Shown here: positions 41,815 to 46,776 of the stretch, piece by piece | Layout of the letters: each line of letters begins with the position of its first letter | Position numbering within the stretch: the first letter of the stretch is position 1 | Notes under the pieces: model-generated | What the model saw: the letters and a program-made list of their open reading frames with translations, nothing else | Told to the model about the DNA's origin: nothing | Database searches by the model: none | Origin: Sodaliphilus pleomorphus | Lineage (GTDB): Bacteria; Bacteroidota; Bacteroidia; Bacteroidales; Muribaculaceae | Assembly: GCF_009676955.1 (NCBI RefSeq) | Contig: NZ_CP045696.1 | Coordinates: 983,501-1,047,500, forward strand | DNA: 64,000 bases | Direction: 5' to 3' | Translations under genes and position numbers: made by a program

Positions 41815-44800
41815 TCACTTGTTGAAGCGAGGAGGAGTGTCGCCGCTGCTGTGCGAGGGGGTGTCGAGGGGCGTGTCGTCGCCAGGGGCTGAGTCTTGCG
41901 GGGCCGCAGGGGCATCTTGCTGTTGCCCTTCGGCCTGCTGCTGCCTGGCTGCCTCGGCCTGGCGTCGCCGTTCCTCGGCCACTTGCTGCAACTCCTCGGT
42001 GCGGCTCTTCCACGGCCGCTTGCCGAAGATGCGCTCCACGTCGGCAGCATAGATCACTTCCTTGCTCATGAGCTCGTCGACCACCTGGTGATGTCCCTGG
42101 GCATACTTGGAGAGAATGTCCTTGGCACGCTGATACTGCTCGTTGACGATGCGCGATATTTCCTCGTCGACCACGCGGGCACGCTCGTCGCTGTAGGGAC
42201 GCGATCCCAACTGGCCCTTGGGGTCGTAGTAGGAGATGTTGGGCATCTTCTCGCTCATGCCGTAGTAGAGCACCATGTTTCGGGCTATGCGTGTAGCCTG
42301 CTGCATGTCGTTGAGCGCCCCGGCGCCTATGGTGCCCAGGAAGAGCTCCTCGGCAGCACGGCCGCCCATGAAGGAGCATATCTCGTCGAGGAAGCCCTGC
42401 TTGTTCACACTCACGCGGTCTTCGGGCATGGTGAGATTCACGCCCAGAGCCTGGCCGCGGGGCACAATTGAGATCTTGACCAGCGGCTGGGCATATTGCA
42501 AGTGCCATATCACGGTGGTGTGTCCTGCCTCGTGCACGGCAGTCTCATACTTGTCGCGCTTGGTGAGCAGCATCGACTTGTTTTCCAAGCCCATGGTCAC
42601 CTTGTCGATGGCCTCGCCAAAGTCTTGCATGGCAATGGCCGGCGCATTGCGGCGGGCGGCGATGATGGCAGCCTCGTTGCACACGTTGGCTATCTCGGCG
42701 CCGCTCATGCCGGTAGTTTGGCGGGCCAGCAGGTTGACGTCGACCTTGTCGTCGACGACTTTCTTCTTCAAGTGTACCTTGAATATGGCCTCGCGGTCGA
42801 GCAGCTCGGGCAAGTTCACGTGCACCTTGCGGTCGAAGCGGCCAGGGCGCAGCAGGGCCGGGTCGAGAATGTCCTCGCGGTTGGTGGCGGCCAGCACAAT
42901 CACGCCGGCATCGCCGTCGATGCCGTCCATCTCGGTGAGCAGCTGGTTAAGCGTCTGGTCGTGCTCGCTGTTGAAGCCCTCGTTGCTGCGGCTGGCGCCC
43001 ACAGCGTCGATCTCGTCGATGAAGACCACACAGGGGGCCTTCTCCTTGGCCTCGTTGAAGAGCTCACGCACACGGCTGGCACCCACGCCTACAAATTTCT
43101 CGACAAACTCGGAACCCGAGCGGGAGAAGAAGGGCACCTGGGCCTCGCCGGCCACTGCACGGGCCAGCATGGTCTTGCCCGTGCCTGGAGGACCCACGAG
43201 CAGAGCGCCCTTGGGCACCTTGCCGCCCAGGCGGCCGTACTTGGCAGGATTTTTCAAGAAGTCGACAATCTCGGTCACTTCCTGCTTGGCCTCCTCCATG
43301 CCGGCCACGTCGGCAAAGGTGATGGTGCCTATCTCGGAGTGCTTGTCCTCGAGACCCTTGCGCAGGTTGGTGATGGCTTCGTCAAAATACTTGAGCGACA
43401 CGGCCTCGTCGTCGGCCTGAGTGGCAGCAGCCAGGGCGGCATCGTTGCACACCTTGGCAATGTCGGCGCCACTGAAGCCCGATGTTTTCTGAGCCAGGTC
43501 ATCGACCTTGACATCGGCAGCCAGTTTCACATGCTTGAGATAGAGGTTAAAGATCTCGAGGCGCTCGCTCTGGCTGGGTTGCCCCACATAGATGTGACGG
43601 TCGAGGCGGCCTGGTCGCAGCAGCGAGCGGTCGAGCATGTCCTGGTTGTTGCAGGCGGCCATCACAATCACGCCACTGCTGTTGCCCATGCCGTCCATCT
43701 CGATGAGCAGCTGCGACAGGGCTGGCGTGCGGCTTTGGTCGGCCGCCACCTCGCTGCGCTTGGCCCCTATGGCCTCGATCTCGTCGATGAAGACCACACA
43801 GGGCGATTTCTCGCGTGCCTCGCGAAATATCTCGTGCAGGCGCTGTATGGGATCGCCGTATATGTTGGCCAGGTCGGGGCCCGATGCGGTGATAAAGGGC
43901 ACGTCGGCCTCGTTGGCCACGGCCTTGGCCAGCATGGTCTTGCCCGTGCCGGTGGGTCCCGAGAGGAGCACGCCGCGCGGTATCTTGCCGCCCAGGCGGG
44001 TGTAGAAGTCGGGGCGCTTCAAGAAGTCGACAATCTGCAGTATCTTGCTCTTGGGCTTGTCGACACCGGCAATGTCGTCGAAGGTGACCGTGTTGGCCAG
44101 CTTGGTATCGTAGTCGAGGCCCTTGCGCACCTTCTCGATGGCCTTGAGCAGGTCGGCCTGGGTCACATGTTCGTTGCCGGCACCGGCCGACTGCACGGCG
44201 GCATCGTTGCACACGTTGGAAATCTCGGCGCCGCTGAAGCCCGAGGCCTTGCGGGCCAGCTCCTTGGTATCGACGTCGCTGGCGGTGGTGATGCGCTTGA
44301 GGTAGAGCTCAAAAATCTCCTCGCGGTCCTTGAGCTCGGGGAAGCCCACATATATCTTGCGGTCGAAGCGGCCAGGGCGCACCAGAGCCTTGTCGATGAG
44401 CTCCACACGATTGGTGGCGCCCATCACGATCACGCCCGAGTTGGTGCCATAGCCGTCCATCTCGGCCAGCAGCTGGTTGAGCGTGATTTCGCGCTCGCCG
44501 TTGCGGTTGGAGCGGCTGCCTATGGCGTCGATCTCGTCGATGAAGATGATGCAGGGAGCCTTCTCCTTGGCATTGCGGAAGAGCTCGCGCACGCGGCTCA
44601 CGCCCGAGCCCATAAACTCGCCCTGGAACTCGGCTGCCGAGGTCGAGAAGAAAGGCACATTGGCCTCGCCGGCAACGGCCTTGGCCAGCAGCGTCTTGCC
44701 CGAGCCTGGAGGGCCCACCAGCAGCACGCCGCGCGGTATCTTGCCGCCCAGGCGGGTAAACATCTTGGGATTGCGCAGGAAGGCGATGATTTCGCCCACT

Positions 44801-46203
44801 TCCTTTTTGGGTTTCTCCATGCCGGCCACGTCGGCAAAGGTCACGGTGTCGGTCATGCGGGTGGGCTTGTCGAGCTGCCGCGTCACGCGGTCGATGGCCT
44901 CGTAGAAGTCGGGCTGCTGCACGGCCTTCTTCTTGGCGCGGGCGGCCAGCAGGGTGGCCTCGTTGCATATATTGGCAATGTCGGCCCCCGACAGGCCCGA
45001 GGTCATGCGGGCCAGGCGGTCGAGGTCGACGCTACCGTCGATTTTCACATTTTTGAGATGCACCTTGAAGATGGCTGCACGGTCCTCAAGGCTGGGGTTG
45101 CCTATGTAGATCTGGCGGTCGAAGCGGCCAGCACGCAGCAGGGCCTTGTCGAGCACGTCGGCACGGTTGGTAGCGGCCAGCACAATCACGCCGCTGTTGT
45201 TGCCGAAGCCGTCCATCTCGGTGAGCAGCTGGTTGAGCGTGTTCTCGCGCTCATCGTTGGCGGCAAAGTCGTTCTTGCGGCTGCGGGCGCGCCCTATGGC
45301 GTCGATCTCGTCGATAAAGACGATGCAGGGAGCCTTCTCCTTGGCCTCGCGAAACATGTCGCGCACGCGGCTGGCACCCACGCCCACAAACATCTCGACA
45401 AAGTCGCTGCCGGCCATCGAGAAGAAAGGCACTTGCGCCTCGCCGGCCACAGCCTTGGCCAGCAACGTCTTGCCCGTGCCTGGAGGGCCCACCAGCAGGA
45501 TGCCCTTGGGGATGGTGCCGCCCAAGTCGGTGTACTGCTTAGGGTTTTTGAGAAACTCCACAATCTCGGACACCTCTTTTTTCTCTTTTTCCATGCCGGC
45601 CACGTCGGCAAAGGTGATTTCCTTGCTCTTGTCCTTGTCCTTGACGTGGAGCTTGGCACGACTGCGGCCCACGCTGAACACACCGCCGCCGCCACGGCCG
45701 CCCATGCTGCGCATCATCCATATCCAGAACACGACGAGCAGCACAAAGGGCAGCGCGCCCAGCAGCATGCTCGTGTAGTCGCTGTCGCTGGTATACTCGA
45801 CCTTGCCGTTAAACTGGCCGGCCTTGCGCCACTTGTTGACGTAGTCGTCCATCTTGTCGCTCGAGGCGATGCCGGCAGTCACCGAGCTCTGCACACCTTG
45901 CTGCGGCCGTGAGTCGGGATAGACTTGCTTGGCCAGCTCGGGGGTGAGGAAAGCCTCAACCTGGTTTTTGCCGTTGTGCACCACAATCTTGGTCACGCCC
46001 TTGCCCTTGGTCTGCACCAGGTTTTCAAAGTCGGTCCACGGCACTTGCTTGGTCTGCACGTCGGCGTCGAAGAACCAGTAGCCCACCAGCATGGCAAGTA
46101 TCAAGGCATAGAGCCAGTAGATGCTGAACCCGAAGCCCTTGCCCCGTGTCTTGCCGTCGTTGTTATTGTTGCTATTATTGTTGTTGTTGAAAATTCCAGC
46201 CAT
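41815..46203 (-). CDS. ftsH: Giant FtsH-type ATP-dependent zinc metalloprotease with four tandem AAA+ modules
   Basis: 1462 residues; ordinary FtsH has about 650-700. Order: poly-Asn start (6-15), membrane helix 27-45, periplasmic part 46-143, helix 146-165, AAA1 (196-446), AAA2 (455-700), AAA3 (706-950), AAA4 (958-1207), M41 protease (1210-1395, HEAGH 1224-1228, third zinc ligand Asp1299), and a Gln/Ala/Pro-rich tail. Walker A: 239-246 GPPGTGKT, 497-504 GPPGSGKT, 749-756 GPTGTGKT, 1004-1011 GPPGTGKT; each has a Walker B FIDEI. Pore loops are FVG, FMG, IYG and FVG. AAA3 has lost the ATN sensor-1 (ACNN). AAA1 keeps the Bacteroidota-type LLRAGRFDR finger. It follows rsfS, where this phylum's housekeeping ftsH usually lies, so this seems to be the resident membrane protease, enlarged. 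Frame is continuous and the modules differ throughout. Confidence 0.97.
46159..46188 (-). repeat. Asn-codon trinucleotide run in ftsH start
   Basis: Ten codons, nine of them AAC/AAT, encode [10 protein letters not shown] (residues 6-15) just before the first membrane helix. Low complexity; could vary in length without changing frame. Confidence 0.8.
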
Positions 46204-46300: not shown

Positions 46301-46660
46301 TTAGTCGAGATCGGGCACGCGGGTGAGCTTGGCGTCGGCCCACAACTCCTCGAGATTGTAGCGCACGCGGAAGTCGGGCAGGAACACGTGCACATAGACC
46401 GTGCCGTAGTCGATCACGATCCACTGCGAGTTCTGGTAGCCGTCGTAGTTGAACGGGCGGGTGCCCAGTTTCTTCTCCACATAGTCGCGCACGCTGTCGG
46501 CCACGGCATCGACCTGCATGGTGCTGTTGCCTGTGCATATCACAAAGTCGCCTGTGGCTGCCGTCTCAATCTGGTTCATGTCGACGTGCACGATATCGTG
46601 GCCCTTCTTCTCCTGGATGCCCTCGATAATCGCTTGTACTAATGTTTCGTTTTCAGTCAT
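46301..46660 (-). CDS. rsfS: Ribosome silencing factor RsfS
   Basis: 119 residues from the ATG at 46660, chosen because a -7 box lies at 46686-46693 and upstream in-frame ATGs would precede it. Typical order: LVQAIIEGIQEKKGHDIVHVDM, TGDFVICTGNSTMQVDAVAD, GYQNSQWIVIDYGTVYVHVF and FRVRYNLEELWADAKL. RsfS binds ribosomal protein L14 and blocks subunit joining in starvation. 97 bases upstream of ftsH; the rsfS-ftsH pairing is common in Bacteroidota. Confidence 0.95.
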   Translation of the reverse strand: MTENETLVQAIIEGIQEKKGHDIVHVDMNQIETAATGDFVICTGNSTMQVDAVADSVRDYVEKKLGTRPFNYDGYQNSQWIVIDYGTVYVHVFLPDFRVRYNLEELWADAKLTRVPDLD

Positions 46661-46685
46661 ATATATACATCGTAATGTTATCCTG

Positions 46686-46693
46686 CAAAGATA
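46686..46693 (-). promoter_or_regulatory. -7 box for rsfS-ftsH
   Basis: TATCTTTG on the minus strand, 25 bases before the rsfS ATG. A TTTG at 46712-46709 is only 15 bases upstream. Confidence 0.5.
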
Positions 46694-46776
46694 CAGCAAA
46701 TACTGCGCCAAACGAAATTATTTATTAAGTTTTAAGGTTTTGACTCGGGCGCGGGCCGCCGAGCTGGCCCGAGAGC

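Follow-up and report, generated by a model that had tools for sequence, protein, structure and literature searches.

An FtsH of Sodaliphilus pleomorphus that combines four AAA+ modules and a single M41 protease in one chain

The stretch of DNA analysed here (the window) comprises 64,000 nucleotides of contig NZ_CP045696.1 from Sodaliphilus pleomorphus (GCF_009676955.1). The ftsH gene located in this window (41815..46203, minus strand) encodes one chain in which the membrane part of FtsH is followed by four AAA+ modules and a single M41 protease. It is the only ftsH detected in the genome, and its product likely assembles as a hexamer, in which four stacked ATPase rings would feed one protease chamber (probability about 0.6). 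We infer the hexamer, the stacking, the substrate path, and the division of labour between the rings. The four-ring hexamer is proposed because the spacing between modules is nearly fixed in the protein family of this gene (the window's family), three- and four-module forms coexist in related species, and the unit formed by module 4 and the protease is ordinary.

Gene and domain organization

The ftsH reading frame was uninterrupted from the ATG to the stop over 1,462 codons. An earlier description made from the letters alone (the sequence-only reading) had claimed that one continuous frame covers the N-terminal membrane part of an FtsH, four AAA+ modules, and a single M41 protease. This is borne out by the frame and by the profile search with AAA (PF00004) and M41 (PF01434) models, which had been suggested as a check and detected four AAA stretches, four AAA_lid_3 stretches, and one Peptidase_M41 in the product. 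Two membrane spans were predicted by hydropathy windows near residues 23 and 143, on either side of the FtsH_ext (PF06480) extracytoplasmic domain, which matched over residues 29-91 (3.5e-7, profile search of the N-terminal piece). Walker A motifs start at residues 239, 497, 749, and 1004 (motif scan). The features are as follows:

41815..46203, minus strand: ftsH, four AAA+ modules, 1,462 aa (ATG-to-stop frame; Pfam; TIGR01241)
45628..46203, minus strand: N-terminal membrane part, residues 1-192 (FtsH_ext, PF06480, 3.5e-7; hydropathy windows)
45619..45705, minus strand: Gly/basic-rich linker from the second membrane span to AAA+ module 1, residues ~167-195 (translation; boundaries approximate)
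44851..45618, minus strand: AAA+ module 1, residues ~196-451, canonical pore loop FVG (Pfam and alignment)
44095..44850, minus strand: AAA+ module 2, residues ~452-703, pore loop FMG, loop after Walker B shortened (Pfam and alignment)
43333..44094, minus strand: AAA+ module 3, residues ~704-957, pore loop rebuilt; the module absent from three-module relatives (module tree)
43849..43860, minus strand: rebuilt pore loop 1 of module 3, residues 782-785, YGDP replacing FVGVG (alignment)
42583..43332, minus strand: AAA+ module 4, residues ~958-1207, canonical pore loop FVG, adjoins the protease (Pfam and alignment)
42028..42570, minus strand: M41 zinc protease domain, residues 1212-1392 (PF01434, 6.9e-53)
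42520..42534, minus strand: HEAGH zinc-binding motif, residues 1224-1228 (motif scan)

Comparison with NCBIfam models assigned the protein to FtsH (TIGR01241; 1852 bits versus a cut-off of 600), and NF008004 was matched with 1338 bits (cut-off 1008). The CDC48 model TIGR01243 (920 bits, cut-off 802.65) and the curated cut-off of the proteasome-activating nucleotidase model were exceeded as well, since the scores of repeated AAA modules add up. Multi-module FtsH proteins are therefore a trap for annotation.

Conservation and selection

Eighteen four-module proteins were compared (P0001 and P0003-P0019; P0002 is identical to P0001). The Lys-Thr pair of Walker A and the Asp-Glu pair of Walker B were kept in all four modules of all 18 proteins. 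Three 'NE' readings of Walker B in module 3, obtained by a pattern scan, were taken as a pattern slip because the alignment reads DE in 18 of 18. The arginine-finger pair was also kept throughout, apart from one Arg-to-Lys replacement in module 2 of one protein. The claim of the sequence-only reading that every module retains Walker A, Walker B, and an arginine finger thus holds, and the nucleotide-site motifs are present in all four modules; one correction is that the pore loop of module 3 is non-canonical. The two His and the Glu of HEAGH, together with Asp-1299, were invariant across an alignment of 22 rows.

Every module is under purifying selection. The pairwise dN/dS values of modules 1 to 4 were 0.065, 0.152, 0.160, and 0.080 in comparison with genome G044 of the same genus (M41: 0.112), and 0.125, 0.214, 0.161, and 0.110 in comparison with G042 (M41: 0.135), so that modules 1 and 4 were the most constrained in both cases. 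Synonymous change was partly saturated or undefined in the comparisons with G043 and G040. Module 3 displayed the lowest conservation in seven of seven pairwise comparisons, in one of them tied with module 2.

Modules 1 and 4 have a canonical pore loop 1; that of module 2 is slightly changed and reads FMG in 17 of the 18 proteins. Module 3 carries Y-x-x-P in 17 of 18 instead of FVGVG and has no aromatic-x-Gly motif. In 55 three-module proteins of another lineage (see below), the aromatic pore residue was found in the first module of all 55, in the last module of 54, and in the middle module of 33. As stated in a passage of PMC5511170, unfolding drops drastically when alanine takes the first or third position of the FtsH pore motif. 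The same passage describes the D1 ring of eukaryotic Cdc48 as devoid of the aromatic pore residue, the restoration of which is lethal in yeast.

Copy number and distribution in the genus, family, and order

The source genome consists of one contig (3.34 Mb, 98.6% complete), and a profile search yielded exactly one M41 match in it. The four-module gene is therefore the only detected FtsH and stands in for the housekeeping FtsH. A normal-length ftsH elsewhere in the genome, for which a check had been suggested, was not detected by this search, and an extra paralogue beside an ordinary FtsH was rejected on the basis of the single M41 match.

M41 matches were obtained for 91 of the 101 genus genomes in the profile search; the other 10 gave no M41 match. 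Four-module ftsH genes, with open frames of 1,452-1,487 residues, are present in the source genome (G000) and in four further genomes (G040, G042, G043, and G044). Five genomes (G011, G032, G063, G068, and G092) possess three-module genes with frames of 1,178-1,200 residues. The proposal to look for long FtsH in related genomes was thus fruitful. Frames of single-module length (656-744 residues) occur in 77 genomes, of which 27 were confirmed by motif count and 50 were judged from frame length alone. The four genomes with other frame lengths have ftsH cut short or crossing a masked run; the 812-residue frame of G039 spans such a run and was not counted as a variant. A weak second M41 match was recorded in G077.

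A query with modules 2-3 (E 1e-150, a threshold not meant for three-module forms) matched four of 397 family genomes, all from the genus Sodaliphilus. When 393 genomes from 207 genera of the order were searched with a three-module query at 1e-130, the window's own genome was the sole match; this sample held no three-module positive control.

Occurrence outside the genus

The protein search was run with length limits that excluded most ordinary FtsH, scoring in the sequence searches was limited to the candidates sharing most words, and the best 120 of 7,983 matches were evaluated. Among these matches, the four-module family comprised at least 18 entries (P0002-P0019, with P0002 being the window's own protein), and at least eight three-module members of the window's family were found (P0020-P0027). 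P0035 is a divergent four-module FtsH, and P0039 and P0040 also have four modules. A large further set has three modules; those members with a taxonomic label are assigned to Acidimicrobiales, Solirubrobacterales, Thermoleophilaceae, Mycobacteriales, Actinomycetota, or, in one case, Chloroflexi. These mostly actinobacterial proteins (P0065 and P0103, with which P0115 groups), as well as P0039 and P0040, have the same domain order as the window protein: the membrane part first, then AAA modules in tandem, then a single M41 domain. However, the modules of the three-module set, three in each of the 55 proteins examined, fall in their own clade and are spaced more widely, by 266-278 residues.

Double FtsH proteins of dinoflagellates (P0032, P0041, P0050, and others) also have more than one AAA+ module per chain but differ in possessing two M41 motifs, in a polyprotein-like arrangement. 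One AAA+ module precedes each M41 motif, which identifies these chains as FtsH units in tandem, not as one protease with several motors. A further entry, P0099 (1,905 residues), displayed six Walker A motifs by pattern and three AAA stretches by Pfam, with no M41 motif or match; it may be an FtsH-like AAA chain that lost its protease.

The sequence-only reading was not aware of any earlier description of an FtsH carrying several AAA+ modules. With regard to the literature this stands: no description was found in open-access papers, as judged by titles and abstract starts among the matches listed, a scope that leaves out most subscription-journal papers. Also, those passages of a review on FtsH evolution (PMC9020784) that concern tandem arrangements, the AAA domain, Bacteroidetes, Actinobacteria, or duplication do not mention a multi-module FtsH. 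Public databases, on the other hand, contain unremarked three- and four-module FtsH proteins, and the window protein is therefore not unique.

Evolutionary history

A tree of 98 modules retained six of seven chosen four-module proteins, eight from the set of 55 three-module proteins, and 14 out of 28 rows with a single module, with no single-module actinobacterial FtsH among them; P0005 was dropped, apparently through the strict Walker A pattern. Separate groups were formed by the actinobacterial set (with P0039 and P0040), by P0035, and by the window's family with its single-module relatives. Such lineage-wise grouping of modules indicates duplication inside each lineage or later homogenisation, and the tree points to at least three origins of multi-module FtsH.

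Within the window's family, module 1 was sister to single-module AAA domains (96/92). Module 4 grouped with module 3 of the three-module proteins and module 2 with their module 2, and module 3 was sister to that pair (97/94). In the rpoB tree, nine of ten multi-module genomes formed one clade (96/89), and four of the five three-module genomes were nested inside the four-module ones (97/92). Given this nesting, it is simpler to derive the three-module form from the four-module one by loss of module 3, although long branches and the separate position of G068 make this uncertain.

The latter genome (L120; rpoB L125) has a three-module ftsH, yet its rpoB groups with those of single-module genomes (86/81), and its M41 domain groups with other multi-module FtsH proteases (100/100). 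This conflict makes acquisition of its ftsH by gene transfer, or repeated loss in the genus, possible. The M41 domains of multi-module proteins formed one clade on a long stem (100/100), which suggests that the protease changed along with the motors. Quick trees of M41 and module 1 with other Bacteroidales were compatible with in-place change and with import alike.

Comparison with known AAA+ proteins

The window protein shares with canonical FtsH, YME1, and AFG3L2 (m- and i-AAA proteases) the membrane anchor, the extracytoplasmic domain, the FtsH-type AAA+ module, the M41 domain with HEAGH, and the rsfS-ftsH locus. It differs in the number of AAA+ modules per chain (four, not one) and in the rebuilt pore loop of module 3. 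Also, in trees with single-module FtsH from the genus, long stems lead to the M41 and first-module sequences of the window type. In the predicted structure, the last module and the protease align closely with ordinary FtsH structures (3kds, 6nyy, and 6az0).

Like the window protein, p97/Cdc48 carries AAA modules of this class in tandem on one chain, and the one altered pore loop of the window protein recalls the eukaryotic D1 ring without aromatic pore residue treated in the above passage of PMC5511170. However, p97/Cdc48 has two modules rather than four, and an N domain where the window protein has a membrane anchor, with a protease also attached. The N-terminus of the latter consists of FtsH_ext and two hydropathy peaks, M41 is present, and the FtsH score exceeds the CDC48 score (1852 versus 920 bits). 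By Foldseek, the predicted tandem modules superimposed on p97 D1-D2 with an rmsd of 5.1 over 528 columns for one chain (9yrc_B; monomer model with pTM 0.39), but VIA gave an rmsd of 10-13 for tandem p97 rows, so that a stacked D1-D2 placement is neither supported nor contradicted.

Proposed mechanism and alternatives

In the proposed hexamer, six chains would be anchored in the membrane through their paired N-terminal helices, and the substrate would enter sideways between the membrane and ring 1, as has been proposed for ordinary FtsH. For Aquifex FtsH, a passage of PMC7949044 proposes such entry, with the gap being kept by a flexible linker of ~20 residues between the membrane and the AAA ring; a Gly/basic-rich linker is also present after the second membrane span of the window protein. 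Ring 1 would then take hold of the substrate with its canonical pore loop. From there the substrate would be threaded through rings 2 and 3 to ring 4, which would grip it a second time, and it would be cleaved in the M41 ring. ATP would also be hydrolysed in ring 3, whose rebuilt loop with a single tyrosine would grip differently, as a clutch or a low-grip booster.

Several observations weigh against this reading. The aromatic-x-Gly loop of module 2 is kept in 18 of 18 proteins and the tyrosine of module 3 in at least 17 of 18, both of which weaken the idea of low-grip middle rings; an aromatic residue kept in every module of the window's family argues against the simple reading that these rings do not grip. 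Sensor-1 Asn is absent from module 3 in one of the 18 proteins. The monomer predicted for residues 190-1389 contains four AAA folds and the protease, at a mean pLDDT of 77.6 and a pTM of 0.39, and its tandem modules fitted tandem p97 rows with an rmsd of 10-13 (VIA). The model of the independent three-module protein P0115 (mean pLDDT 84.5, pTM 0.48) agreed poorly with the p97 placement (rmsd 10-24). Such loose or poor agreement of monomer models neither shows nor refutes stacking, which we continue to infer.

The rings might also stack with the terminal ring alone unfolding, so that modules 1-3 would bind ATP and act as a spacer or gate, distancing the chamber from the membrane and selecting substrates. 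The rebuilt pore loop and low conservation of module 3, and the loss of the aromatic residue from the middle module of 22 of the 55 three-module proteins in another lineage, would fit this idea. All 18 proteins retain Walker A and B in each module, and nearly all arginine fingers, which argues against it, and a passive module 1 would not need the strong constraint that modules 1 and 4 show. We therefore hold this alternative to be rather unlikely. Considerably less probable is an arrangement like that of dynein and midasin, in which neighbouring positions of a single ring are filled by modules from the same chain, here with fewer chains per ring. Each module has the arginine finger and nucleotide site that a heterotypic ring would need, but related species have three or four modules, and four does not close a six-membered ring. 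Moreover, the M41 domain, one per chain, forms a six-membered ring in known FtsH, and the modelled last module and protease closely match ordinary FtsH.

FtsH trims its own C-terminus, and processing of the chain, or the use of internal starts, could in principle yield an ordinary one-module FtsH as the working enzyme. We consider this very improbable in view of the unbroken frame in five of five four-module genomes, the purifying selection on each module, and the membrane anchor that a piece without module 1 would lose. Repeated modules are a general assembly hazard, but the probability of an assembly or frame artefact is negligible. The module DNA is only 63-78% identical to the reference copy (longest repeat families), which excludes a stuttered assembly of identical copies; the same architecture recurs in independent assemblies, including genomes of the genus; and the source genome is one contig. 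An artefact was therefore rejected, and the four-ring hexamer feeding one protease chamber is preferred.

FtsH has to extract proteins from the membrane and is considered a weak unfoldase with a single ring. With roughly even odds, multi-ring FtsH would represent a new class of membrane proteases with up to 24 ATP sites above a single six-fold chamber, which arose separately in a Bacteroidales genus, an actinobacterial group, and a third lineage, each time by AAA+ duplication inside ftsH. The end rings would keep their grip and the middle rings would be free to change, so that the sole FtsH would have been replaced by a geared multi-stage unfoldase. FtsH forms with one, three, and four modules occur within one genus, next to the same neighbour gene, and constitute a natural experiment on how additional AAA+ rings would affect force, processivity, membrane distance, or substrate choice. 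That multi-module forms arose repeatedly and independently, and that the middle module has often lost its aromatic residue in one lineage, suggests a design rule for stacked motors.

Genomic context and related loci

One neighbouring gene was annotated:

46301..46711, minus strand: rsfS, directly upstream of ftsH (RsfS, 2.8e-29)

This gene is the usual neighbour of ftsH in the genus, being found at nine of nine multi-module and 27 of 30 single-module loci examined; the latter contain part of rsfS only, and the three misses are loci without a whole ftsH in view. The rsfS-ftsH context of a housekeeping gene, noted in the sequence-only reading, is thereby confirmed.

Lon and Clp-type matches are present in the source genome, and the four-module FtsH therefore does not replace another lost protease. 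Among 17 genus genomes, namely nine of the ten multi-module (G040 left out) and eight single-module ones, a strong Lon_C match was obtained in 15 and ClpB_D2-small in all 17. The two without strong Lon_C, G042 and G043, are both four-module genomes, 88% and 78% complete. Compensation for lost proteases was rejected on the basis of these counts.

The closest full-length relatives (L032-L039) are labelled Muribaculaceae, Prevotellaceae, or Bacteroidales, some of them with mention of horse faeces or water buffalo rumen, and the source organism probably lives in the gut as well. On two other Bacteroidales contigs (L045:5929-12201 and L054), an ordinary ftsH is located just downstream of clpX- and/or lon-like genes in a protease cluster, the clpX and lon names being taken from frame ends, unscored. 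These loci were ruled out as longer ftsH fusions, since the upstream genes are separate from the ordinary single-module ftsH. Contig L041 is labelled Clostridium sp., but its FtsH groups with that of Bacteroidales in quick trees; it is probably a mislabelled or contaminated bin.
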